22,614 nucleotides of DNA from positions 1 to 22,614 of IMG/VR virus record IMGVR_UViG_3300043419_000110. One strand, 5' to 3'. This DNA is from a virus. Positions 23-17,068 of this stretch are shown here, piece by piece (position 1 is the first letter of the stretch; each line of letters starts with the position of its first letter). Made by a program: the position numbers and the translations under genes. Under the pieces are notes generated by a model. That model was not told where the DNA came from. It saw nothing but the letters and a program-made list of their open reading frames with translations, and made no database searches.

Positions 23-224
23 CAATAGCCTCAATAGTTTCGCAAGGATAATGTTCGCTACAAATTCCACACAAATCAGGATATGGTCCACCACAGCAGC
101 CTGGGTCATAACACGAGTTGTCAGAAATTGGTTTATGCAATTCCACTACTGCACGAAGGGTTTGAATCAAAGTTTGATAACTAGCCTCATCTTCTATCTT
201 TGTCAGCAATTCATCGTGGTTCAT
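9..224 (-). CDS. Small Cys-rich protein of actinophage type
   Basis: This is a 71-residue protein of unknown function. I start it at MNHDELL rather than the longer upstream Met, because the longer form would lie inside the preceding membrane-protein gene and AGAAGAG sits at ribosome-binding distance. The N-terminal half is helical and contains LRAVVELHKP. The C-terminal half is Cys-rich (CYDPGCCGG, then LCGICSEHYPCETIEAIEKE), which suggests a bound metal. As I recall, actinophages carry many small proteins ending in a YPC-x-T-x-x-AI-x-x-E pattern. It overlaps the upstream gene by 14 nt, so it is probably translationally coupled. Confidence 0.8.
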   Translation of the reverse strand: MNHDELLTKIEDEASYQTLIQTLRAVVELHKPISDNSCYDPGCCGGPYPDLCGICSEHYPCETIEAIEKEF

Positions 225-378
225 CAAAAAACTCTTCTCTAATTGATACTCCAATAAGATATGAAGCAAAAGCTAATCCAAATCCCATAAAGAGTATAAC
301 AAATATTGTTGTATGAAATACTCCAAGGTAAAGAAATAAACCTAGTGGTACTGCTCCTGTTATAAAATCTTTAATCAT
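211..378 (-). CDS. Small integral membrane protein, 55 aa
   Basis: This unrecognised ORF begins MIKDFITGAVPLG and ends IREEFFDEPR. Almost the whole chain from residue 5 to 46 is hydrophobic (for example FVILFMGFGLAFASYLIG), consistent with one or two membrane helices followed by a charged tail. Its ATG overlaps the stop of the upstream gene (ATGA) and its end overlaps the next start, which supports it as a real link in the operon. Function is unknown. Confidence 0.75.
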   Translation of the reverse strand: MIKDFITGAVPLGLFLYLGVFHTTIFVILFMGFGLAFASYLIGVSIREEFFDEPR

Positions 379-737
379 GCTAAAATCTCCATAATCTCTT
401 TTCTAATTCCCAGCCAATCTTCTTCATGGAAGTACCAGCGATTAGCTTCTTGATTAAATACATAATCATAAACCTCTTGCTTAATGCCCCAAACAATACC
501 GCTTGTAATTGATTCTTTTAATTGATTAAACTCTTCATCACTTTCGCAACCCTCTAAAGCATCACAGCCAGAGCATGATCCATATCCAATAACAGTAAAT
601 GCATACCTATCGTCATTTTTTAACAGGTATACATAATCCCCCTGATATGAACCTAGGGTCCAATCTTTAAGAATTTCTCCTTGAGTAGCAACTATTTCAT
701 CATAAGACATAGGTGCTTCATAGTATTCGTATGTCAT
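375..737 (-). CDS. Conserved phage protein of unknown function
   Basis: This 120-residue soluble, acidic protein has no signal peptide. A central segment, VIGYGSCSGCDALEGCESDEE (residues about 49-69), carries three cysteines in a C-x-x-C plus C arrangement. The chain is rich in Tyr and Trp, with a DW..GSYQGDYVYLLKNDDRYAF stretch that looks like a beta-rich core. I recall proteins with a similar GYGSCSGCD motif in other actinophages, but no activity is assigned. It is preceded by TAAATG and followed by ATGA, so it is co-translated with its neighbours. Confidence 0.8.
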   Translation of the reverse strand: MTYEYYEAPMSYDEIVATQGEILKDWTLGSYQGDYVYLLKNDDRYAFTVIGYGSCSGCDALEGCESDEEFNQLKESITSGIVWGIKQEVYDYVFNQEANRWYFHEEDWLGIRKEIMEILA

Positions 738-815
738 TTATTCCCACTCAATGTTATTGATACTTAGCCAATCTAAGTAATTAGAGATCTTCAAATTCAG
801 TTTCAAATGGATCAT
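738..815 (-). CDS. Possible 25-aa overlapping microprotein
   Basis: An ORF starting MIHLKLNLKIS and ending INNIEWE fills an otherwise empty gap. It overlaps the 3' end of the membrane-protein gene at 781-918 in another frame, and its TAA abuts the next ATG (TAAATG). The region also forms a small hairpin (ACTTAG, loop ATTGG, CTAAGT). No convincing Shine-Dalgarno is seen, so it may be only spacer. Confidence 0.3.
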   Translation of the reverse strand: MIHLKLNLKISNYLDWLSINNIEWE

Positions 816-918
816 CAAAATCAAACCTATCTAGTACGCCAAATGTTTTATAGGAGATAAAGCTTACTGCACCAATAATTAAAATAATTGAAAGTAGGAT
901 TCCAGACTTTTTATTCAT
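781..918 (-). CDS. Single-pass membrane protein, 45 aa
   Basis: The protein starts MNKKSG, has one hydrophobic segment (ILLSIILIIGAVSFIS, residues 7-22), then an acidic cytoplasmic-type tail (DRFDFDDPFETEFEDL). AAGG lies just before the ATG. The start overlaps the upstream gene by 8 nt. It could be a small anchor protein or a signal-anchor peptide; the K-x-x-hydrophobic start would also fit a secreted peptide, but there is no clear cleavage site. Function is unknown. Confidence 0.7.
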   Translation of the reverse strand: MNKKSGILLSIILIIGAVSFISYKTFGVLDRFDFDDPFETEFEDL

Positions 919-1153
919 CCTTAACGCTCCATGGCTCAACTACGGCAAGCTCTTCTGGGGCAATTCCAACAGATTCTGCCAATGCTCTCTCAGCATTAGC
1001 CCTTTGCTCAGGAGTTAATGAATCTGCAGCAGATGCCATCTGCTTCCTTACATACTTGTCCAAGTAGTGACCAGATGAGTTCTTTTTGGCAATTCTTTTA
1101 AGGTTCTTCTTCTGTCTCTTAGCCCCTTTTGGGGACGGATTACTCTTCTTCAT
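911..1153 (-). CDS. Basic protein of unknown function, 80 aa
   Basis: I start this gene at MKKSNPSPKGAKRQ, where GAGGAA lies 6 nt upstream and the overlap with the preceding gene is a normal 14 nt. The longer upstream ORF would run deep into that gene. The N-terminal 40 residues are very Lys/Arg-rich, suggesting nucleic-acid contact. The second half is acidic and helical (SLTPEQRANAERALAESVGI, then APEELAVVEPWSVKDE). It resembles small phage structural or DNA-binding proteins only in composition, and I do not recognise the family. Confidence 0.7.
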   Translation of the reverse strand: MKKSNPSPKGAKRQKKNLKRIAKKNSSGHYLDKYVRKQMASAADSLTPEQRANAERALAESVGIAPEELAVVEPWSVKDE

Positions 1154-1382
1154 TTTCTTCCTCATCTTCTTCAAATAGGTTCCAGTATCGGCGTTCCCAT
1201 GTTTCCGCTTTCTGTTCAGCATCAATCCACATTTGCTTCATTGCATCACGAGATTCATATGCTTTATCAATTAGATCTTGCATATAATCTGTTTGTTTAG
1301 TTATATCTGTATTAATTCCTCTAGCTTTACCAATGCCCATACCAAACAAAAAACAACCTAAGTTGAATAGAATATCAAACAT
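1140..1382 (-). CDS. Membrane-anchored coiled-coil protein, 80 aa
   Basis: The first 16 residues (MFDILFNLGCFLFGMG) are hydrophobic, followed by a charged helix (about 30-68) with a heptad-like pattern and a run of glutamates at the end. It is the first gene behind the strong promoter at 1407-1435 and has a good ribosome binding site (AGAGGCGGA), so it heads the operon running to 9. Such anchored helical proteins occur widely in actinophages without assigned function. Confidence 0.75.
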   Translation of the reverse strand: MFDILFNLGCFLFGMGIGKARGINTDITKQTDYMQDLIDKAYESRDAMKQMWIDAEQKAETWERRYWNLFEEDEEENEEE

Positions 1383-1406
1383 TTCCGCCTCTTTCTCTAT
1401 ATATTA

Positions 1407-1435
1407 ATTATACATTAGTCAGCCTAGGCTGTCAA
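1407..1435 (-). promoter_or_regulatory. Consensus sigma-70 promoter with palindromic operator
   Basis: TTGACA (1430-1435) and TATAAT (1407-1412) are separated by exactly 17 nt. The spacer and the edge of the -35 box hold a perfect 12-bp palindrome, CAGCCTAGGCTG (1420-1431). A dimeric repressor bound there would block polymerase. Predicted transcription starts about 1400, giving a short leader with a ribosome binding site for the gene at 1140-1382. Confidence 0.85.
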
Positions 1436-1440
1436 GGATA

Positions 1441-2400
1441 TTAGAGAATATCGTGGAACTCTTTCCACTTAGCTGTCACCTTATCCCAGCTATATGCGTT
1501 ATTAATATATTCAATTTGCTCTCTAGGATCCCATTTACCAGAAAGTATTTGGCCTATTCCTTCAGATAGGATCTTTGCATATTCTTTTGCATAATCATCT
1601 CCCTGGAAAATTCCGTCCTTGATGAACTTATTATCAATATCATCTAGATATAGACCATGTCCATTCACAACTTCAGGCAATGATCCAACATTACTATATA
1701 CTGGCAAAAGACCAGCACTCATTGCTTCAGCAATTGCAATACAGAATGTCTCAAGAAAGATTGGAGGGTATGCGTGTAGGTGAGATTCCTCTAGATGACG
1801 ATACATTGTTTTTCTAGGTGTTCTTCCGTAAAATGTAATTCTATCATCATGCATAAACTCATTATCTAAATACATTTCTGGATAAAAGTCGTTAAATATA
1901 TCAAGCTGAAAATCCTGCTCAATATACTGCAATGAATTTAGCAAGATCATCATGCCTCTGTTAGGACCAGAAGTATGTGTTATTCTTACCTTTTTAACAT
2001 CCTTAAACTTATCTGGATTATACTTTAGTGGTTCGATACCGTTTGGAATAACGTAAAGCTTTTCCTTTGGGAAACCAGTTTCTTTATGAAACTTATCCTT
2101 AGCATATTCAGATGGAACGATAACATATTTAATCTTGTCTGAGATCTCCCCACCGCTCCAGAAGAACTCTGTAACCTCTGGACCAAACTGGCTAGGCAAG
2201 CAGTGTGCCCAAAATATAATCTCTCCGTCAAACTTTTTTACGCTTTCATTATCTAAATTCTTGCCAGGCAAGATCATGCATAGATATTTCTCAAAGTTAG
2301 GTGAGTCAGGCAAAACCTTTTCGTGGAATGTTCTTGCTTGATATTCAGTTCCGCCGATTGTATGGTGATGAAAATTAAAAATTGGTATATGTTGTTCCAT
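1441..2400 (-). CDS. GT4-family glycosyltransferase
   Basis: This 319-residue enzyme would transfer a sugar from an activated donor, probably a nucleotide sugar. The GT-B fold is indicated by an N-terminal acceptor domain containing a GGTEY loop (16-20), a linker VIPNGIEPLKYNPDKF (117-132) and a C-terminal donor domain with the E-x7-E signature (E217 and E225 in FLETFCIAIAEAMSAG) followed by PVYSNVGSLPEVV. No signal peptide or membrane segment is visible, so it is cytoplasmic. It stands alone behind its own promoter and a terminator-like hairpin. Likely roles are glycosylation of virion proteins, of modified DNA bases or of host surface polymer; context does not decide. Length is somewhat short for the family, but both domains appear present. 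Confidence 0.9.
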   Translation of the reverse strand: MEQHIPIFNFHHHTIGGTEYQARTFHEKVLPDSPNFEKYLCMILPGKNLDNESVKKFDGEIIFWAHCLPSQFGPEVTEFFWSGGEISDKIKYVIVPSEYAKDKFHKETGFPKEKLYVIPNGIEPLKYNPDKFKDVKKVRITHTSGPNRGMMILLNSLQYIEQDFQLDIFNDFYPEMYLDNEFMHDDRITFYGRTPRKTMYRHLEESHLHAYPPIFLETFCIAIAEAMSAGLLPVYSNVGSLPEVVNGHGLYLDDIDNKFIKDGIFQGDDYAKEYAKILSEGIGQILSGKWDPREQIEYINNAYSWDKVTAKWKEFHDIL

Positions 2401-2406
2401 TATCTC

Positions 2407-2435
2407 ATTATACTAAATTTAAAATAGGCAGTCAA
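2407..2435 (-). promoter_or_regulatory. Leaderless promoter of the glycosyltransferase
   Basis: TTGACT (2430-2435), 17-nt spacer, TATAAT (2407-2412). ATTTAG lies directly upstream of the -10. Only 6 nt separate the -10 from the ATG at 2400, so the transcript should start at or next to the start codon and there is no Shine-Dalgarno. Confidence 0.8.
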
Positions 2436-2485
2436 TAGTTAAAGGCCTAATGTTTCTGTTTTATTTACTTATTTGGCATAAAGAT

Positions 2486-2519
2486 CCCCACCAGCCCTAA
2501 TTTGTAGGGCATAGTGGGG
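2486..2519 (-). terminator. Two-step hairpin, likely terminator
   Basis: CCCCAC (2486-2491) pairs with GTGGGG (2514-2519), and inside it GCCCTA (2494-2499) pairs with TAGGGC (2505-2510). The hairpin lies a few nucleotides after the stop of the gene ending at 2528 and before the next promoter. The following sequence, ATCTTTA, is a poor T-tract, as is common in actinobacterial terminators. The stretch 2436-2485 beyond it holds nothing I can identify. Confidence 0.6.
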
Positions 2520-2527
2520 AATGCTTA

Positions 2528-2743
2528 TTATACCTTCTTTGGCTTGCTCTTCTTAGGAGCTATTACAGTTTCTCTACGAATACCGTGTTTATTTGTATCA
2601 ATCTTTGTTGCTGGTCTTGGACCATTAATTCCAGATCTAAACTTACCTTGTGAAGGGTTCTTTCTTCTTGCTTCTTGCGAAGTTACTGCGCCAGATGGTT
2701 GATTATTTGGCGGGGTATCCATACCTGTACCGTTATCACTCAC
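2528..2743 (-). CDS. Basic disordered protein, about 71 aa
   Basis: The chain is rich in Pro, Gly, Asn, Lys and Arg (NNQPSGAVTSQEARRKNPSQ; ending APKKSKPKKV), with little hydrophobic core, so it is probably disordered and may contact nucleic acid or be a virion decoration. I use a GTG start that overlaps the previous stop (GTGAGTGA). An internal ATG at 2722 (MDTPPNNQ) is the alternative. It is the last gene of the operon that starts near 3010, and the terminator hairpin follows. Confidence 0.65.
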   Translation of the reverse strand: MSDNGTGMDTPPNNQPSGAVTSQEARRKNPSQGKFRSGINGPRPATKIDTNKHGIRRETVIAPKKSKPKKV

Positions 2744-2894
2744 CTGAAATAAATCTTTCTCTTTGTTCTGGAGTTGCGGTCATGTTTAGTGTAAGACCCG
2801 CTTCTCCATCAGTTGAAACATTAAGAATTCCACCTGGAATATCTGTAAGACCAGTCTGGCTTCCTACTGCTTCACATCCACATTCGTAGCACAT
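2736..2894 (-). CDS. Small Cys-containing phage protein, 52 aa
   Basis: The protein begins MCYECGCEAVGSQTG, with three cysteines in C-x2-C-x-C spacing, and ends NMTATPEQRERFISGE. The middle has a GGILNVSTDGEAGLTL beta-like stretch. The TAATAATG junction ties it to the upstream gene. A role in metal binding or as a short virion component is possible; function is unknown. Confidence 0.7.
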   Translation of the reverse strand: MCYECGCEAVGSQTGLTDIPGGILNVSTDGEAGLTLNMTATPEQRERFISGE

Positions 2895-2896
2895 TA

Positions 2897-3010
2897 TTAC
2901 TTACCGCCGTTGCCAAGTCCTGCGCCATCTTGCGATGACTTGTCTGCTGCAGGGAACGCTGGCTTTGGTGCCTCTGTGTAATCTGCTGCTGGAACGTTAT
3001 TTGTTGTCAT
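2897..3010 (-). CDS. Short Ala/Gly-rich peptide, 37 aa
   Basis: This ORF (MTTNNVPAADYTEAPKPAFP, then AADKSSQDGAGLGNGGK) has a strong ribosome binding site, AGGAG, 6-7 nt before its ATG. It lies between a predicted extended -10 promoter and the Cys protein, which starts immediately after its stop. Composition suggests a disordered chain. No family recognised. Confidence 0.65.
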   Translation of the reverse strand: MTTNNVPAADYTEAPKPAFPAADKSSQDGAGLGNGGK

Positions 3011-3072
3011 TTTATTCTCCTATAGGGTTTAAATTAGGTAGCTCTAGAAATCCACCTATAGATATTATAGCA
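3011..3072 (-). promoter_or_regulatory. Extended -10 promoter and two-state leader
   Basis: TGCTATAAT on the minus strand (3064-3072) is an extended -10 element without a recognisable -35. The leader has two mutually exclusive stems: CTATAGG (3055-3061) with CCTATAG (3020-3026), which touches the AGGAG ribosome binding site; and TAGGT (3054-3058) with ACCTA (3035-3039), which would leave it free. This could tune translation of the operon 3010-2528. Confidence 0.45.
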
Positions 3073-3076
3073 TTTA

Positions 3077-3199
3077 TTAGCTTCTATACCTTTTGTGCCA
3101 ACAATCCTCACAAACAGCTACATATTTAGTCTCTGTTGTGGTGAGGCGGGTTGCATTATTAGTACAACCCGCCATTTCACATACTTCTTCTGAATTCAT
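3077..3199 (-). CDS. Small zinc-binding protein, 40 aa
   Basis: The ORF MNSEEVCEMAGCTNN...VCEDCWHKRYRS has C-x4-C and C-x2-C pairs 17 residues apart, with a basic end, so a single zinc ribbon is likely. Its ATG overlaps the upstream stop (TAATG). The coding DNA between the Cys pairs contains a perfect 9-bp inverted repeat (3145-3153 and 3165-3173). Similar minimal zinc ribbons are abundant in actinophages, but none has a proven role that I can name. Confidence 0.75.
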   Translation of the reverse strand: MNSEEVCEMAGCTNNATRLTTTETKYVAVCEDCWHKRYRS

Positions 3200-3408
3200 T
3201 ACTTCTTTTTAGTAGTCTTCTTAGGAGCTGTCTTCTTAGGGGCAGTCTTCTTAACTGGCGCAGTCTTCTTAACTGGAGCCTTCTTCTTAGGAGCTGCCTT
3301 CTTTGCTGTCTTATTCACTGTTTCCACCTTCTTTGGCTCTTCCAAGATCAGGCTTGTGTACTGTAGCTCTGATGGGAATAGCCAGTTTTTAATTTTCTTT
3401 AACATCAT
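3199..3408 (-). CDS. Histone H1-like Lys/Ala/Pro-rich protein
   Basis: This 69-residue protein has an N-terminal segment (MMLKKIKNWLFPSELQYTSL) followed by a tail of K-K-A/T-P-x repeats (APVKKTAPVKKTAPKKTAPK), like the C-terminal tails of histone H1 and of bacterial Lys-rich nucleoid proteins. It probably binds DNA or RNA without sequence preference. I start at the ATG that overlaps the preceding TGA (ATGATG), not at the ATG 17 codons earlier, because that region encodes a better small ORF in another frame. Confidence 0.75.
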   Translation of the reverse strand: MMLKKIKNWLFPSELQYTSLILEEPKKVETVNKTAKKAAPKKKAPVKKTAPVKKTAPKKTAPKKTTKKK

Positions 3409-3533
3409 TTTTTGTCTATCTTTCTGATTATATAATCTATTACTTGTTGTGGCTTCCAATTGTCTGGGAGCTCAAGATTACCTATCTCTTTTACTATGTC
3501 TCGTCTGACTTTTTCTTGTATGTAATCTTCCAC
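3405..3533 (-). CDS. Small helical protein with GTG start, 42 aa
   Basis: Starting from GTG, this ORF reads VEDYIQEKVRRDIVKEIGNL and then ELPDNWKPQQVIDYIIRKIDKK: two amphipathic helices with a proline-containing turn. It has no ribosome binding site, but the -10 box lies exactly 6 nt upstream, as at the other leaderless genes here, which supports this start. It overlaps the next gene by ATGA. A short HTH-like or protein-binding role is possible, but not shown. Confidence 0.65.
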   Translation of the reverse strand: MEDYIQEKVRRDIVKEIGNLELPDNWKPQQVIDYIIRKIDKK

Positions 3534-3539
3534 TATATT

Positions 3540-3568
3540 ATTCTATCATTTATATGTTAAAGGGGCAA
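3540..3568 (-). promoter_or_regulatory. Leaderless promoter with -35 in a terminator hairpin
   Basis: TTGCCC (3563-3568), 17-nt spacer, TAGAAT (3540-3545) with TGA just upstream (extended -10). The gap to the GTG at 3533 is 6 nt. The -35 lies inside the hairpin that ends the previous gene. Confidence 0.65.
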
Positions 3569-3590
3569 GGCCTTAGCCCTGCCCCTTTAA
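3557..3590 (-). terminator. Terminator of the surface-protein gene
   Basis: A perfect 10-bp stem, TTAAAGGGGC (3557-3566) with GCCCCTTTAA (3581-3590), forms 9 nt after the stop of the gene ending at 3600. The symmetric arms could work on both strands, but no plus-strand gene needs it. Confidence 0.8.
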
Positions 3591-3599
3591 TTAGAAGAT

Positions 3600-4652
3600 T
3601 TACTTCTTTAGTGCTACCTTAGCCTTTGGAAACTTCTTGTTCCATGCTGTTGCTAGCTTATTGTATTCGACCTTGTATGCTGCTGCTGCAACATCTGATG
3701 CTGCCTTCGCTGAGATCGCTGCTGCTGCTGCATCTGCAGTCGCCTTAGCTGTTGCTGCATTTGCTGCTGCTAGAGCAGTTGCTGCTGTTGCTGAATCATT
3801 TGCACGACCAGCCTTTTCTGCTGCAAGCTGTGCTGTAACTGCTGCGAGTTCTGCAGTCTTTGCAGCAAGCTCTGACGCTAGGTCACGGACTGCTGCTGTC
3901 TTTACAACTACTCCAAGCGGAGCAACGAGGCCTGTTACCGCAGAAGCAACTGTTGCAGTTGCTACGAGTGTAACGTTACCAGAAGCAGGAAGTGTTACAT
4001 CCTGTGTCTTTGTTCCTAGTGTTGCTGTAGCTGTTTCTGTTGTAAGTGAGTATGTTGTTGATGCAGATGGAGTAATGTACTGAAGGCTGATTGATGCTCC
4101 GCCCTTAGCGTTTCCAAATACGTCAAATCCTGATACCTTTGCTGTATATGTTGTACCAGCAGCACCTGTAGCAGGTGCTTCAAGAGCAATCACGTTGAGG
4201 GCTCCTGCTGTACCGTTAAAGTAATATGTTGTTACATTTCCACCAATTGTTACTGCGACAGTACCTGCAGCAGTTGTAGTTGTGAAAACATATAGATCAG
4301 CAGTAGTACCTGTACCAGTGCTGATTGATGCTGATGTTGAGCCAGCTGATGCTGTTACTGGTGCTGAAACTGTAGAAAGCGCTGCAACGAGCTTTCCATT
4401 AGTTGCGACTGCAGAAACTACTGTTCCTGTATCTAGACCTGTAATAGCAATCTTAAGCGCATCTGCTGAATCTACAGAGTTATCTGCAGGGACTGGCAAT
4501 GCGATTGAAGTTGCTGCTGTTGTACCAGCAGTTGCAGGGGCTGAACCGCCAACTGTAAGAGTTGTAGTAGCAGCACTTGCAGGTGTTGCGACAAGTGTAC
4601 CCATAGCTACGGCTGCAACCATTGCTAGGGTGATCTTCTTAAATGATTTCAT
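3600..4652 (-). CDS. Secreted Ala/Thr-rich surface protein
   Basis: This 350-residue protein has a clear Sec signal peptide (MKSFKKITLAMVAAVAMGTL, ending in ATPASA; mature start about residue 29). Residues 30-250 are Thr/Ala/Val-rich repeats of beta type, including SGFDVFGNAKGGASISLQYI, as in Ig-like surface domains. Residues 255-325 form an Ala-rich coiled coil (ELAAKTAELAAVTAQLAAEK), and the end is YNKLATAWNKKFPKAKVALK. The layout and ending resemble abundant cell-surface proteins of freshwater actinobacteria as I remember them, so host origin or mimicry is likely. It could equally be a virion fibre. The DNA is visibly richer in GCT/GCA codons than its neighbours. The ribosome binding site is AAGGAG and a terminator follows. 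Confidence 0.85.
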   Translation of the reverse strand: MKSFKKITLAMVAAVAMGTLVATPASAATTTLTVGGSAPATAGTTAATSIALPVPADNSVDSADALKIAITGLDTGTVVSAVATNGKLVAALSTVSAPVTASAGSTSASISTGTGTTADLYVFTTTTAAGTVAVTIGGNVTTYYFNGTAGALNVIALEAPATGAAGTTYTAKVSGFDVFGNAKGGASISLQYITPSASTTYSLTTETATATLGTKTQDVTLPASGNVTLVATATVASAVTGLVAPLGVVVKTAAVRDLASELAAKTAELAAVTAQLAAEKAGRANDSATAATALAAANAATAKATADAAAAAISAKAASDVAAAAYKVEYNKLATAWNKKFPKAKVALKK

Positions 4653-4724
4653 TTAATTTATTCTCCTTAATTTCTCCACCTCTTGCTGAGCGTGGAATTC
4701 TATTTTGTGTACGAGTTCCGCCAT
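4653..4724 (-). CDS. Possible 23-aa helical microprotein
   Basis: An ORF MAELVHKIEFHAQQEVEKLR (then RIN) overlaps the end of the preceding gene and its TAA abuts the surface-protein ATG (TAAATG). It contains the ribosome binding site of that gene. The peptide would be one amphipathic helix. There is no Shine-Dalgarno, so translation would need coupling; it may be spurious. Confidence 0.3.
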   Translation of the reverse strand: MAELVHKIEFHAQQEVEKLRRIN

Positions 4725-4933
4725 TGTGACGGAGAGTGATTATCTTCTACTTCTTTCTTCATATCAATGTCTTCGTACATTCGAACAATATGAATACAGG
4801 GATCTTGGCCTTCGCCAAACTCTACATCTTCTTGCTCAGACATTGGTAGTCCGTCATGTGTATAGCATACTGGAGGACCGCACCATCCTTTTTCAATTCC
4901 AAATGCCATCCATTCATCGTATGTTAAAGCCAT
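4700..4933 (-). CDS. Conserved actinophage protein, 77 aa
   Basis: The chain MALTYDEWMAFGIEKGWCGP, then PVCYTHDGLPMSEQEDVEF, GQDPCIHIVRMYED and NHSPSQWRNSYTK has a recognisable pattern (EWM.FGIE.GWCGPPVC.THDG.P) that I remember from actinophage proteins of unknown function. Three cysteines and several histidines could bind a metal. It overlaps the thioredoxin gene by 10 nt and is probably translated with it. Confidence 0.8.
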   Translation of the reverse strand: MALTYDEWMAFGIEKGWCGPPVCYTHDGLPMSEQEDVEFGEGQDPCIHIVRMYEDIDMKKEVEDNHSPSQWRNSYTK

Positions 4934-5226
4934 TCTTCAAACTCCTTTACGAGTTTGTGTTTTGGTTGAGCGCCAACCGTTGTCTTAACAGGCACACCAT
5001 TCTTAAAAATAACCATTGCTGGTATTGATTGAATACTATACTTTTCTGCTAATTCTGGGAAATCATCAATGTTTAGTTTACCTACAGGAAGAGAGTATTC
5101 TTGCTCTATTTCATCAAGAATTGGTGAAACTTTTTTACAAGGTCCACACCACTCCGCCCAAAAATCTACTAAAATCGTTTCGTTATTAGACAAAGCCTCA
5201 TCTATGTTATCTCTTGTGATAATCAC
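4924..5226 (-). CDS. Thioredoxin
   Basis: This small cytoplasmic disulfide reductase has the canonical active site WCGPC at residues 26-30 after DFWAE, a conserved cis-proline (SIPAMVIFKNG) and a C-terminal helix, for 100 residues in total, normal for the family. I place the start at the GTG of VIITRDN, which has GGAGGAAAT upstream and overlaps the previous stop as GTGA. The longer ATG reading would lie within the preceding gene. Phage thioredoxins may serve ribonucleotide reductase or redox control during infection; no reductase is in this window, so the electron donor must come from the host or from elsewhere in the genome. Confidence 0.95.
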   Translation of the reverse strand: MIITRDNIDEALSNNETILVDFWAEWCGPCKKVSPILDEIEQEYSLPVGKLNIDDFPELAEKYSIQSIPAMVIFKNGVPVKTTVGAQPKHKLVKEFEEWL

Positions 5227-5693
5227 ATTTCCTCCACATGAGTAGGCCAGTAATAGCTGCATGATTCACAGCAAGTATACCCTAACTCACGATAATCTGC
5301 AAAGTCAGAGTAGAAATAGTACTTCTCTGCGTCCTTTTCATAAAGTCTACCCTTATGAGTGTAGTGTAGCTTGTTATCTCCGAGCCACCAAGGTGATTCT
5401 GATTCAAGCATTATGAAATTTTCCTGATAAATCTCATCGAATTTCTCTCTAGTACTGTTCTTGTACCCACGGAGAATGATTTCTTTGATGATTGCTTCAT
5501 TATACATGAATAGCCAATCCTCATGACCATCCCACATTTTGACTGCTGGATGATTTTTCCATGCACCTGAACTATAAAGTCCAGCTAAAGACTTTAGGAT
5601 CTGTAAGTTTTCTACGCTTTGTTTGATTAGACGCTTTCTATCTAAATGCTTTGCTGTCTCCTCAAAATCCGCCTCTGGTAAGAATGTTTGCAT
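5223..5693 (-). CDS. MSMEG_6728-type protein (DNA glycosylase-like)
   Basis: This 156-residue protein matches the pattern of a family sometimes annotated as pyrimidine-dimer DNA glycosylase: MQTFLPEADF..TAKHLDRKRL..Q.VENLQIL (1-33), WKNHPAVKMWDGHEDWLFMYN (45-65), and PWWLGDNKLHYTHKGRLYEKD (101-121). The C-terminus adds CCESC. An activity on damaged DNA is plausible from relatives but unproven. The start is set at MQTFLP because a promoter -10 lies exactly 7 nt before it; an earlier in-frame ATG falls in the terminator and promoter. It is first in the operon with thioredoxin. Confidence 0.85.
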   Translation of the reverse strand: MQTFLPEADFEETAKHLDRKRLIKQSVENLQILKSLAGLYSSGAWKNHPAVKMWDGHEDWLFMYNEAIIKEIILRGYKNSTREKFDEIYQENFIMLESESPWWLGDNKLHYTHKGRLYEKDAEKYYFYSDFADYRELGYTCCESCSYYWPTHVEEM

Positions 5694-5700
5694 AGTGTCT

Positions 5701-5729
5701 ATTCTACTAAATAATGTGGGGCAGGTCAA
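5701..5729 (-). promoter_or_regulatory. Leaderless promoter of the MSMEG_6728-type gene
   Basis: TTGACC (5724-5729), 17-nt spacer, TAGAAT (5701-5706), with ATTTAG immediately upstream of the -10. The gap to the ATG at 5693 is 7 nt. The -35 falls in the loop and stem edge of the preceding terminator hairpin. Confidence 0.8.
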
Positions 5730-5741
5730 CCCCTGCCCCAC
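5716..5741 (-). terminator. Terminator overlapping a promoter
   Basis: A perfect 10-bp GC-rich stem, GTGGGGCAGG (5716-5725) with CCTGCCCCAC (5732-5741) and a 6-nt loop, starts 5 nt after the stop at 5747. It is followed by ATTATTT, which is partly T-rich. It shares bases with the -35 of the next promoter. Confidence 0.8.
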
Positions 5742-5746
5742 TGTAA

Positions 5747-5971
5747 TTATTCTGGCTTATTCTGCAGTTCTTCTGCTGCCTCATTAAACTTATTCATAAA
5801 CATCTGAATAGTAAAGTAAGAGGTTTCCAAAGCATTCTTATTTAAATTAGCTAATGCTTCTTCTGTTCGCTGATCTTCTGGAAGATTGTTAGCCCAGCGT
5901 TGAAATAATGCTACTCCAACGTCAGACATAATTTCTTCAAGCACTGTCATTTTCTTTCCAATATTATCCAT
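5747..5971 (-). CDS. Small helical protein, 74 aa
   Basis: An all-helical, soluble protein (VLEEIMSDVGVALFQRWANN, then LPEDQRTEEALANLNKNALE and TSYFTIQMFMNKFNEAAEEL) of unknown function. GGGAG lies 6-7 nt before the first ATG, favouring that start over an internal Met. It overlaps the end of the subtilisin gene by 8 nt and is followed by a strong terminator, so the two form a bicistronic unit. A partner or inhibitor of the protease is conceivable, but only from position. Confidence 0.75.
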   Translation of the reverse strand: MDNIGKKMTVLEEIMSDVGVALFQRWANNLPEDQRTEEALANLNKNALETSYFTIQMFMNKFNEAAEELQNKPE

Positions 5972-6893
5972 TGATAGCTCCCGTAAAATTAATTACTCGA
6001 TTCGTTTTTATCTTAGCGTTATAGTTAGATGTACTAGTGTTAACTAGTAAATCATAAATCTGACTATATGTAAGAGTTGGCTTTAGTGATGAGAGAAGTA
6101 CCCAACCTGAAGCAGTTTGAGATGATGAAATGGAAGTTCCAACATGATTCTTTGCAGTTCCATTTAAAGTTAGATCAAGGAATCCTGGTGACAAGAAATC
6201 AGTTAGATTGTTGTCGTGATTTGTAAATCCAGCAACGTAACCATTTTTATCGGTTGCACCTACTGCAATAGCAGAAGGAATGCATGCAGGCCAGTCAATT
6301 CTTGCTGCATCCCAGTTGTTTCCAGTTGGGAAAAATACTGGCACATTAATAGCAACTGACTTATTTACTGCTTCATCTACTGCAGGAATCTTAGGGCAAT
6401 AGTCTGTTCCTGGGCGCAAGTTGTGGTGTCCCTGAGACATGTTAATCGCCTTAATATTATATTTATCTTTATTCTGAACTACCCAGTTAATAGCGTTAGC
6501 AATAACGTTTGTAGGGGTATTGGCTCGTGTACCATTTGCATTGTAGGCAATGATACGAATAAACACAATCTTAATGTTTGGATTAGCTTTAATTGCTGCT
6601 GCTGTCATAACTGATCCGTGCTCAAAACCATTTGAGTACATGAAGTTAGCTGGAATAGAAGCTGCTCCTGGACCCTCCATAAACTCTTGACCGTTTGCAC
6701 AATTCTTTACTGTTAGAATACAGACTTCATGTACAATCTTCCCGCTAAAAAGAGGATCATTGGGATTGATAGCAGTATCAATAACTGCTAGAGTAGGCGT
6801 TGAATCGACTGTGCGATTCTTGATGCTTGCTTGTGCAGTTGCAGGAACTGCTAGTAGTACGGCAATTAGAGCCGAAGTAATTTTTTTGTTCAT
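5964..6893 (-). CDS. Secreted subtilisin-like (S8) serine protease
   Basis: This 309-residue protein has a signal peptide (MNKKITSALIAVLLAVPATA, cut near QAS) and a compact S8 domain with the full catalytic set: D39 in VIDTAIN, H92 in EHGSVM, the oxyanion Asn in PTGNN (about 192) and S254 in GTSISSS. There is no long pro-peptide and no visible membrane anchor or sorting motif, so it should be exported and released or remain at the wall. Cysteines 58, 65, 166 and 204 may form disulfides. It sits behind its own leaderless promoter. Possible roles are breaking down host surface proteins during release or entry, or processing virion proteins. Secretion argues against a capsid-maturation role. Exported subtilisins are unusual in phages. 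Confidence 0.9.
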   Translation of the reverse strand: MNKKITSALIAVLLAVPATAQASIKNRTVDSTPTLAVIDTAINPNDPLFSGKIVHEVCILTVKNCANGQEFMEGPGAASIPANFMYSNGFEHGSVMTAAAIKANPNIKIVFIRIIAYNANGTRANTPTNVIANAINWVVQNKDKYNIKAINMSQGHHNLRPGTDYCPKIPAVDEAVNKSVAINVPVFFPTGNNWDAARIDWPACIPSAIAVGATDKNGYVAGFTNHDNNLTDFLSPGFLDLTLNGTAKNHVGTSISSSQTASGWVLLSSLKPTLTYSQIYDLLVNTSTSNYNAKIKTNRVINFTGAING

Positions 6894-15244: not shown

Positions 15245-15430
15245 CTACCTTGCGTTATCTGTTTTATAGAAACCATTGCCCTTAAACTGTATACCAAAGG
15301 TGCCGTAATGCCTCTGTAGCTTTTCCCCACACTTATTGCATAGATAGCTTGGTTCAACAGAGTTTATTGATCTTTCTTTTGTGACAATGTCTTCTGGAGA
15401 ACACTCACACTTATACTCGTAATATGGCAT
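15245..15430 (-). CDS. FmdB-type zinc-ribbon protein
   Basis: The 61-residue protein begins MPYYEYKCECSPED, as FmdB-family zinc ribbons do (MPxYEYxC), with a second pair in YLCNKCGEKLQRHYGTFGIQ and an ending FKGNGFYKTDNAR that also matches the family. The first pair here is C-x-C instead of the usual C-x2-C. It is transcribed with the nuclease upstream (TAATG overlap). Family members are often annotated as regulators, without proof. It could help the nuclease or bind nucleic acid. Confidence 0.85.
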   Translation of the reverse strand: MPYYEYKCECSPEDIVTKERSINSVEPSYLCNKCGEKLQRHYGTFGIQFKGNGFYKTDNAR

Positions 15431-15837
15431 TACTTACCGCTCTTTTTTCTCTTCTCTGCCAAGATTGTAAAGTCTTTAATCTTGGTTTCGCCCATGTAGC
15501 CCCAGGCGTATCCATCTTCAATCATAATTTCATTTACTGACTTAGAGTTACCGTCTAGGTAAACCCATCCAAGTATTCTTCCGTACTTCTCTGAACTATC
15601 TGGAAGCTCTGTTTTAATTACAATATCTTTAACGTCTTTAAATTTAGACTTCAGATATTCTTTTGATTCAAGCCCCAGACTTTTCTCAAACTTATCAGTA
15701 GTTCTTGACTCTGGAGTATCAATGCCAGCCAGTCTTAGTCTCTGAGAATATGAGATGCTAAATCCTAGATCAATGTCAACATCGATAGTGTCACCGTCTA
15801 CTATCTTTGTAACCTGCTTAACTCGATACTCGTACAT
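15430..15837 (-). CDS. Staphylococcal-type nuclease (SNase)
   Basis: This 135-residue protein has the OB-fold nuclease pattern: VDGDTIDVDIDLG (13-25), RLRLAGIDTPES (33-44) and EKYGRILGWVY (84-93). The residues matching SNase R35, D40, E43 and R87 are all present, so it is probably an active Ca-dependent nuclease on DNA or RNA. No signal peptide is seen, so it should be cytoplasmic, unlike the secreted staphylococcal enzyme. It is behind its own -10 box and a structured leader with a hideable ribosome binding site, suggesting tight control. Possible jobs are host DNA degradation or nucleotide salvage. Confidence 0.9.
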   Translation of the reverse strand: MYEYRVKQVTKIVDGDTIDVDIDLGFSISYSQRLRLAGIDTPESRTTDKFEKSLGLESKEYLKSKFKDVKDIVIKTELPDSSEKYGRILGWVYLDGNSKSVNEIMIEDGYAWGYMGETKIKDFTILAEKRKKSGK

Positions 15838-15944
15838 AATACTCCTTAAATGTTTAGGAGCAGTTTTTAGACTTGCTCAGGTCTGTCCTACGGGTAGCGC
15901 CCGTATAAAGTCTGCGACTCCCCAGTGACGGGGTGCAGGCTTCT
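15838..15944 (-). ncRNA. Structured, riboswitch-like leader
   Basis: On the minus strand the RNA can fold as CTGC/GCAG (15935-15938 with 15912-15915) around a CCCC/GGGG hairpin (15930-15933 with 15920-15923); AGACTT/AAGTCT (15908-15913 with 15869-15874) enclosing ACGGG/CCCGT (15900-15904 with 15890-15894); and GAGCA/TGCTC (15874-15878 with 15858-15862). A competing helix CTCCT/AGGAG (15856-15860 with 15842-15846) covers the Shine-Dalgarno of the SNase gene and uses the same bases as the last stem. Not all stems can form together. I could not match it to a known riboswitch class. Confidence 0.55.
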
Positions 15945-15950
15945 ATTATA
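15945..15950 (-). promoter_or_regulatory. -10 box for the structured leader
   Basis: TATAAT preceded by AAATAG, a variant of the ATTTAG element. No clear -35 at 17 nt. The transcript would begin about 15938, at the foot of the first helix. Confidence 0.5.
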
Positions 15951-15954
15951 CTAT

Positions 15955-16374
15955 TTATTTGATTTTGATCGTCTTTGGCTTTTTATCTTCAGGTACAATT
16001 TTTTCAACTGTAACGGACAAAAGACCATTTTTTAGCTCAGCACCAGTGACTTCCATATATTCACCAAGCGCAAATGTGCGGGTAAATTTACGGGCAGCAA
16101 TTCCTTTATGAATTGCTTCACCAGAATCCTCTGTAGACACCTCTCCCTTAATTACTAGAGTTCCATTATCTAGAGTAACATCCACGTCCTTCTTGTCAAA
16201 ACCAGCCAGGGCTAGGTCTACACGAAATACGTCCTCCTCTATCTTTACGATATTGTAGGGCGGGTATGATTGATGTGATGCTGTTGTGTGTACTGTATTT
16301 AGGCGATCAAACATATCGTTGAAGCCAATAAAAAATGGATCCTTAAAAAGATCCAATGTAAAATGTGTTACCAT
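15955..16374 (-). CDS. HSP20 small heat-shock protein
   Basis: This 139-residue ATP-independent chaperone has an N-terminal arm (LDLFKDPFFIGFNDMFDRLN), the alpha-crystallin domain beginning YPPYNIVKIEEDVFRVDLAL (about 37-56), a DVDVTLDNGTLVIKGE strand pair, and the signature ELKNGLLSVTVEKIVPE near the end, followed by the KTIKIK motif of C-terminal IxI type. It keeps unfolded proteins soluble and may help virion assembly or cope with stress of infection. The ribosome binding site is AAGGAGG. HSP20 genes are known in marine and freshwater phages. A dyad overlies its transcription start. Confidence 0.95.
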   Translation of the reverse strand: MVTHFTLDLFKDPFFIGFNDMFDRLNTVHTTASHQSYPPYNIVKIEEDVFRVDLALAGFDKKDVDVTLDNGTLVIKGEVSTEDSGEAIHKGIAARKFTRTFALGEYMEVTGAELKNGLLSVTVEKIVPEDKKPKTIKIK

Positions 16375-16654: not shown

Positions 16655-16972
16655 CTAGTCGTTTGGAACTTCAGGCAGATCCATCTCGATCAGCCCCATT
16701 TCTTTTGCTAACTTCTTTCCTTCTTCAGTTAAATGTAATGTAGCTTCTAAATTCTCATCATATTCAACCTGAAGCAGATCTAATTCGTATAACTTCATCA
16801 ATGAATTATCTACATATTCATGGTGAGCCTCCCATAATTCTGGAGCTATATCTTTAGCCTTTTCATTTATTGCAAATATCATTTCGCCAGATTCGTCCAT
16901 ACCTTCTAATGTTACTGCGCCTATCTCAAGGTAGTATTCTAAATCTCTATGTGGTACTTCTTCTTCGTCCAT
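16655..16972 (-). CDS. Small acidic protein, winged-helix-like
   Basis: I start this 105-residue protein at MDEEEVPHRD, which has AAAGGAG at 6-7 nt. A longer reading would start inside the tRNA gene. The chain has LEYYLEIGAVTLEGMDESGE, then MIFAINEKAKDIAPELWEAH and LLQVEYDENLEATLHLTEEG, a helix-helix-beta hairpin order resembling a winged helix. It recalls actinophage proteins near the terminase, of unknown role. It follows the tRNA by 21 nt. Confidence 0.8.
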   Translation of the reverse strand: MDEEEVPHRDLEYYLEIGAVTLEGMDESGEMIFAINEKAKDIAPELWEAHHEYVDNSLMKLYELDLLQVEYDENLEATLHLTEEGKKLAKEMGLIEMDLPEVPND

Positions 16973-16993
16973 GCTATCTCCTTTATTTACTAG

Positions 16994-17068
16994 TCCGCCA
17001 GGTTGGATTTGAACCAACGATTCATACCTTATAAGAGTATTTCCAAAACCAGGCTAGGATACTGGCGG
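16994..17068 (-). tRNA. tRNA-Ile (anticodon UAU)
   Basis: A 75-nt cloverleaf fits: acceptor CCGCCAG/CTGGCGG (7 bp), a 3-bp D stem (TCC/GGA) with a GG-containing loop, anticodon stem ATACT/GGTAT with loop CTTATAA, variable GAATC, T stem GTTGG/CCAAC with loop TTCAAAT, discriminator A. CCA is not encoded. The anticodon reads UAU, for codon AUA. Oddities: the first pair is C-G, and U replaces A at position 21. Its first 15 nt are also the last codons and stop of the endonuclease VII gene. Confidence 0.88.

Follow-up and report, generated by a model that had tools for sequence, protein, structure and literature searches.

A compact H-type RNA pseudoknot in a phage nuclease leader and between phage genes

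Does the structured leader of a phage nuclease gene act as a switch that answers to a ligand, or does it carry an RNA element of another kind? The question is raised by a window of 22,614 nucleotides (the whole stretch of viral DNA analysed, IMG/VR record IMGVR_UViG_3300043419_000110), in which a gene for an SNase-type nuclease is preceded by a leader that the initial annotation had read as a riboswitch-like element with its own -10 box. According to that reading, the segment TGCTCCT could pair either with GAGCA upstream or with the ribosome-binding site downstream, and a nucleotide or a metal was suggested as the signal. The analysis reported here shows that the core of this leader belongs to a large, undescribed group of compact H-type RNA pseudoknots of phages, and their positions and surroundings bear on what such an element might do.

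The leader of the nuclease gene

The features of the locus, in the direction of transcription, are the following.

15955-16374, minus strand: Hsp20 gene, upstream of the leader (Pfam HSP20 PF00011, 1.8e-18)
15838-15954, minus strand: leader, separating the Hsp20 gene from the SNase gene
15945-15950, minus strand: TATAAT, predicted -10 box of the leader's own promoter, in a GTATAAT block invariant in 19 homologous leaders
15912-15938, minus strand: hairpin 1, CTGCACCCCGTCACTGGGGAGTCGCAG, close to the transcript's 5' end and conserved in relatives
15889-15905, minus strand: variable hairpin TACGGGCGCTACCCGTA, from the predicted fold
15858-15884, minus strand: core H-type pseudoknot AGAC-CT-GAGCA-A-GTCT-AA-AAAC-TGCTC, 27 nt, supported by covariation and adjoining the nuclease gene
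15881-15884, minus strand: 5' strand of stem 1, AGAC, pairing with GTCT at 15869-15872
15874-15878, minus strand: 5' strand of stem 2, GAGCA, pairing with TGCTC at 15858-15862
15863-15866, minus strand: AAAC, the conserved part of loop 3, directly 5' of stem 2'
15846-15857, minus strand: stretch without G, CTAAACATTTAA, 3' of the pseudoknot, with its last bases doubling as the AA of the Shine-Dalgarno sequence AAGGAG
15842-15847, minus strand: Shine-Dalgarno sequence AAGGAG of the nuclease gene, from the sequence and aligned in homologous leaders
15840-15862, minus strand: alternative hairpin TGCTCCT/AGGAGTA, possible in the window, which would hide the ribosome site
15430-15837, minus strand: SNase-type nuclease gene of 135 aa, downstream of the leader (Pfam SNase PF00565, 1.7e-15)

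The structured leader itself proved real. Folding of the single sequence gives four paired elements with a z of -2.15 (6 of 200 shuffles were as good), which is weak evidence alone, and comparison of 80 viral loci fetched for their nuclease homologues showed the same composite leader in most of the closer ones. It opens with GTATAAT and a hairpin CTGCACCCC-GTCACT-GGGGAGTCGCAG; next comes a variable part of at least one hairpin or small pseudoknot, and after it the core pseudoknot, GACCTGAGCA-N-GTC-NN-AAACTGCTC, the G-free stretch and the Shine-Dalgarno sequence. At two loci (L051 and L052), the pseudoknot occurs alone and the rest of the composite leader is absent. The -10 box was likewise borne out by the invariant block around it; a sigma-70 scan of the leader region listed no site at this TATAAT, so that the promoter would be of an extended or phage type. 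Hairpin 1 is paired in 99% of cells across the 19 leaders, and its almost invariant sequence leaves little covariation to test. The position of TACGGGCGCTACCCGTA is taken in relatives by different hairpins or by another small pseudoknot, which is why the columns of the leader alignment fail to align there.

Covariation of the stems among homologues had been set beforehand as a check on the structure, and it is present in the pseudoknot. When the 19 leaders were aligned by gene homology, three of the four pairs of stem 1 showed compensatory changes, and both stems were 98-100% paired. The two alternatives proposed for TGCTCCT fared differently. Pairing of GAGCA with TGCTC forms stem 2 of the pseudoknot and covaries across hundreds of loci, whereas the 6-bp pairing that would mask the Shine-Dalgarno sequence is complete in no more than 8 of the 32 SNase leaders; in 15 of them a mismatching A stands where a base should pair with the G of that sequence. 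Since the masking hairpin (-7.8 kcal/mol in the window, with -2.5 for the stem-1 hairpin alone) is so poorly kept, the proposed on/off switch loses its main support.

Two further observations concern the leader and its surroundings. Among the leaders of the nuclease-homologue loci (L001-L080), the composite leader occurs as a cassette, with the same promoter, hairpins and pseudoknot preceding unrelated genes in related phages (SNase, a small zinc-ribbon-like protein, a P-loop kinase-like protein and another protein of 260 aa), and its middle hairpins are interchangeable (GTCGGGGGAGACAGCGAC..AACTG; GGGCTAATAGTTACGCCTTAG). ARAGORN found no tRNA or tmRNA in the leader, and the idea of a tRNA-like or tmRNA piece there was rejected on that ground. 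Elsewhere in the window, a tRNA-Ile with anticodon TAT lies between phage genes (16993-17068, minus strand), and its 3' part runs into the region where the next ORF call (16655-17017) starts.

Architecture and distribution of the pseudoknot

The consensus of the element is S1(4 bp, any sequence)-CY-RRNYA-N-S1'-NNAAAC-URNYY, with a stem 2 of 5 bp and an L2 of 1 nt. Both stems covary decisively. Among 70 natural copies, whose rows were chosen for pairing, 97.6% of cells are paired, compared with 73.5% after shuffling and 27-43% after sliding; the covariation value is 0.679 against 0.221, eight of the nine pairs changed on both sides, and compensatory changes occur at all four pairs of stem 1. 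Tests that did not require the stem under test agree with this set and so support the pseudoknot. With stem 1 required and stem 2 free, stem 2 pairs 5/5 in 193 of 216 copies, and even for loops other than GAGCA it does so in 38 of 61, in 13 sequence combinations. With stem 2 required and stem 1 free, pairs 1-4 of stem 1 form in 247, 246, 243 and 192 of 247 copies, and all four Watson-Crick types are seen at pairs 2-4. The same can be read from IMG/VR as a whole, where GGGCA/TGCCC is found at 120 or more loci and its A-C mismatched counterpart GAGCA/TGCCC at 8, while GGACA/TGTCC is found at 120 or more and the mismatched GAGCA/TGTCC at none.

The loops are as strict as the stems are free. For loci fetched by scans with stem-2 variants, seed copies left out, the pattern CT..AAAC was met in 79 copies against 4 in a parallel-strand control. 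Among the copies from these loci, L1 is CU in 67 and CC in 11, and loop 3 is NN-AAAC in 63 of 79; L2 measures 1 nt in 67 copies and any other length in at most 3, and the tail before stem 2' is AAAC in 67, with at most 2 for each of the 15 other tetranucleotides.

The pseudoknot core occurs at 120 or more loci in IMG/VR and at 59 loci in 84,980 prokaryote genomes, about 5 of the latter being expected by chance (an estimate from base composition alone) and 3 lying inside ORFs. The prokaryote loci come from lactobacilli, Clostridia, Patescibacteria, Chloroflexota, Bacteroidota, cyanobacteria, Alphaproteobacteria, an archaeal MAG and others. Cultured carriers include Arthrobacter phage Amigo, phages of S. 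aureus, Bacillus megaterium, Rhizobium, Lentibacter/Roseobacter and Lactobacillus, and crAss-like phages; taken as a whole, the range extends over actinophages and marine and crAss-like phages, over phages of S. aureus, Lactobacillus, Bacillus and Rhizobium, and over many bacterial phyla. A BLAST search of 5,426 complete E. coli genomes did not find the element. Weak phage BLAST matches in Erwinia, Alteromonas and some others were set aside as chance or degenerate, stem 1 or the whole pattern failing in them. Small Acinetobacter plasmids also have a copy (L270:2001-2028), which lies some 0.9 kb upstream of repM.

The view that the leader matches no known class was supported. Rfam 15 covariance models gave no match to the motif at the gathering threshold in the window and the motif-bearing loci, nor at relaxed E values in the window (E up to 10) or in ten loci (E up to 5), and a known Rfam class was therefore rejected for the pseudoknot. 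The open-access papers searched contain no description of it, though an earlier one elsewhere is possible, and phage pseudoknots go unmentioned in two recent surveys of structured RNAs in bacteria. An RNA structure that recurs at hundreds of phage loci or more, in unrelated phages and over many host phyla, appears to have gone unrecorded in RNA catalogues; the probable reason is that both stems are free to vary and that pseudoknots play no part in covariance models.

The motif has also entered CRISPR arrays. Six spacers carry it, five in a single Ignavibacteria genome with a type III-A system (4 of 97 spacers in a first stretch of the array and 1 of 42 in the next) and one in a Poribacteria array (1 of 119); the arrays lie in L247 (array 36-6745) and L284, and in L256. 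Relative to the repeat, all six motif spacers point the same way. If ATTGA(G/A)AC, the end of the repeat, is the crRNA 5' handle, as is established for type III repeats, the crRNAs would be antisense to the motif RNA, and this orientation would imply that the RNA is made in the sense direction and met often. Its presence in spacers suggests that hosts encounter and target the pseudoknot. Acquisition of these spacers by a reverse transcriptase was considered and rejected, since the system is type III-A and the nine proteins scanned include no reverse transcriptase.

Genomic positions and a possible role at transcript ends

Gene positions were taken from simple ORF calls (100-aa ORFs for strand counts) at loci fetched by motif or by nuclease. 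The element is strand-specific, 349 of 445 copies being sense to both flanking genes and 9 antisense to both; convergent and divergent arrangements, also counted on 100-aa ORFs, number 39 and 48, which is no useful difference. Its 5' edge shows a sharp peak 5-6 nt after the upstream stop codon and practically never comes closer than 4 nt. In two separate sets of loci this spacing is the modal one, for 35 of 100 upstream protein families in the first and 33 of 127 in the second, while distances to the next start codon are broad. Copies are also found at places apart from ribosome-binding sites, which tells against a riboswitch: after stop codons, before U-tracts and promoters, beside a tRNA and inside a permuted tmRNA.

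The gene contexts are varied. The pseudoknot lies between head morphogenesis and scaffold or capsid genes in S. aureus phage 80, phig1e and lactobacillus prophages, between the portal gene and the capsid region in the Bacillus Page group, between ribonucleotide reductase and PhoH in SIO1 and L088, and between SSB and a tRNA in Amigo, where the copy abuts the tRNA. Genes for DUF932 (phrog_1221) are often bracketed, with one copy before and one right after the gene (L109, L132, L138, L147, L169), and a few copies stand before convergent genes (L110, L209). The crAss-like phage cr7_1 encodes a permuted tmRNA (Rfam RF04321; L286:20659-20894), and its copy of the pseudoknot sits between the two pieces of the tmRNA precursor, just before the coding piece.

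What follows the element is equally characteristic. Across 572 copies, G falls to 4-10% over the 8 nt after stem 2' and T stands at about 40% up to +9, with normal composition from about +12, so this tract of roughly 9 nt, G-poor and U-rich, looks like one of RNA:DNA-hybrid length. Runs of T5 within 22 nt downstream are present in 92 of the 572 (about 16%), as against 3-18 in control windows, and TATAAT within 40 nt in 43, as against roughly 5-20 in most other windows. With a T5 run in so few of the copies, the majority would terminate weakly.

A tandem arrangement was found in one phage group, to which the evidence for exchange with hairpins is limited. Three contigs of related phages (L422, L389 and L417) carry tandem one-gene units in the order gene, stop codon, element, T5 or longer run, and promoter, the last being a -35-like TTGTCG followed by TATAAT. 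The element slot is filled by the pseudoknot in 9 of 13, 8 of 12 and 8 of 9 units of the three contigs (25 of 34), and by a stable intrinsic-terminator hairpin in the remaining 9; at one apparently orthologous slot, identified by the same promoter sequence, L422 has a pseudoknot (1066) where L389 has a hairpin (642). At L422:300-6400, and in L389 and L417, the units form a run of numerous small genes, all of them preceded by a TTGTCG..TATAAT promoter of their own and by a terminator or pseudoknot. As the pseudoknot here is swapped for an intrinsic terminator hairpin just before a promoter, the simplest reading is that it does the terminator's job. Outside these contigs it occurs within operons, and in the SNase group it occurs in the 5' leader.

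We give roughly even credence to the reading that the pseudoknot is a transcript-end element of the terminator type. The pseudoknot would form in the nascent RNA close behind RNA polymerase, which could then pause or release on the weak RNA:DNA hybrid that follows, about 9 nt long, G-poor and U-rich; the folded structure would be left as a protected 3' end right behind the stop codon. This would amount to an intrinsic terminator built on a pseudoknot instead of a hairpin, and in many places probably a leaky one. What the data show is the pseudoknot itself, by covariation, with its strand-specificity, its positions, the tract behind it and its exchange with terminator hairpins in one phage group; termination, its efficiency and the protection of RNA ends are inferred, and the same applies to any regulation in the nuclease leader. 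There, the module between promoter and ribosome site would serve as an attenuating or pausing, RNA-protecting block of a composite leader; since the pseudoknot comes after the promoter and before the Shine-Dalgarno sequence, with a tail that is G-free but T-poor, attenuation of the nuclease gene is possible.

Several points count against a terminator. The copies directly upstream of scaffold and capsid genes (S. aureus phage 80, phig1e and Bacillus Page-type phages) would be an odd place to stop transcription, and the SNase leaders have the pseudoknot between promoter and gene. The copies abutting a tRNA and inside the permuted tmRNA precursor, together with the absence from E. coli, must be counted on the same side. 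The strict loops (CY, 1 nt and NNAAAC) suggest some further demand, because a plain hairpin would do for termination.

Another means by which the element could act is as an exoribonuclease roadblock, stalling RNase J from the 5' side or PNPase and RNase R from the 3' side and so stabilising the adjoining piece of mRNA. It would punctuate polycistronic phage mRNA without terminating it, much as plant-virus xrRNAs do. We judge this unlikely, and keep it as a rival since it explains the 5' leaders and capsid-gene positions better than a terminator does. It would work alike in 5' leaders, between genes and at 3' ends, and suits both the bracketing of single genes such as that for DUF932 and an architecture resembling that of intergenic xrRNAs and the coremin motif. 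Full-length RNase J is encoded in 41 of 50 motif-bearing genomes, and the lack of copies in E. coli fits as well. However, motif-bearing genomes of Bacteroidota, Beggiatoa, Omnitrophota and Calditrichota gave no full-length RNase J match, and a good copy is present in a Stenotrophomonas phage; RNase J as the sole or general target was rejected because hosts lacking it also carry the motif. The roadblock also leaves the U-rich tail and the exchange with terminator hairpins unaccounted for. Both it and a terminator predict a folded pseudoknot at an RNA end, and they differ in whether polymerase is affected.

A third way the element might act is at the border of translation, where a pseudoknot at the mRNA entry of the terminating ribosome would block sliding or reinitiation, or mark the gene end for a protein, whether bound to the ribosome or not. 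The distance of 5-6 nt from the stop codon matches that of recoding pseudoknots, which have a similar spacing. Yet no reading-frame extension past the stop is conserved (extensions are mostly short and of scattered lengths) and TAA is the commonest stop, which puts readthrough or frameshifting out of the question, and the copies in 5' leaders and in the tmRNA precursor do not follow stop codons. A border role is accordingly quite improbable. Still less probable is that the element divides polycistronic phage RNA into units as a self-cleaving ribozyme or a processing site: the protein-independent spread over many phyla, the punctuation of gene units and the strictly conserved loop bases CY and AAAC would fit, but very few unpaired bases are conserved, no Rfam ribozyme family matches and the U-rich tail is not predicted.

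The riboswitch from which the question started is the least credible of all. In it, a ligand or metal would shift TGCTCCT between the upstream loop and the ribosome site and so turn the nuclease on or off. Both pairings are possible in the window and the leader is conserved, but the masking pairing is incomplete in most leaders, no aptamer-like conserved core is seen and no Rfam family matches. A ligand tied to the nuclease is further argued against by the occurrence of one and the same 27-nt pseudoknot with functionally unrelated genes (SNase, ribonucleotide reductase, scaffold/capsid and primase).

Beyond the terminator-type reading, a broader proposal can be made with less than even confidence: that a minimal pseudoknot, defined by loop geometry and not by stem sequence, is a near-universal punctuation of phage transcripts, in use in phages as different as actinophages and crAss-like phages and in MAGs of many phyla, an archaeon among them, controlling ends through RNA polymerase or blocking decay, and so well conserved that type III CRISPR arrays repeatedly carry spacers against it. 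Should the pseudoknot end or protect transcripts, phage transcription units could be read by a simple rule, expression control would gain a compact part, and the replacement of a terminator hairpin by a pseudoknot would have a testable case.

Comparison with known systems

The preQ1-I and SAM-II types of riboswitch have an H-type pseudoknot in a 5' leader near the ribosome site, as does the window, but the phage element lacks an Rfam sequence match, its stem 2 excludes the Shine-Dalgarno sequence and its associated genes are unrelated. Type III toxin-antitoxin RNAs (ToxI-like) are short pseudoknots linked with phages; unlike them, the phage element is without tandem processed repeats, and among the copies looked at, none had a noticeable toxin gene next to it. 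Frameshifting pseudoknots of the luteovirus type (BWYV) have an L1 of 2 nt starting with C, an L2 of 1 nt and an A-rich L3 of 6-7 nt, and in these loop sizes the phage element resembles them. It differs in lying outside coding sequence, in having no slippery site and in following stop codons past which no extension is conserved.

The likeness to intrinsic (Rho-independent) terminators is one of arrangement: a structured RNA precedes a weak, U-rich hybrid roughly 9 nt long, just after stop codons and, in one phage group, in the same slot before the next promoter. Its structure is an H-type pseudoknot with strict loops and not a G+C-rich hairpin, its U-tract is weak in most copies, and it is found in 5' leaders as well.

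Among published systems, the intergenic xrRNAs of plant viruses come closest. Those of the xrRNA-D class are small and pseudoknotted, some of them upstream of protein-coding RNAs, and coremin (GUCCGAAGACGUUAAACUAC) is a short hairpin followed by AAAC (PMC6299227, PMC10520033). The phage pseudoknot is likewise small and located in viral intergenic regions, and it shares the AAAC of coremin, although its sequence and stems differ and xrRNAs belong to eukaryotic RNA viruses and to Xrn1. The phage element has a pseudoknot supported by covariation, one of the features by which xrRNAs are judged; resistance to exoribonucleases would be a candidate property of it.
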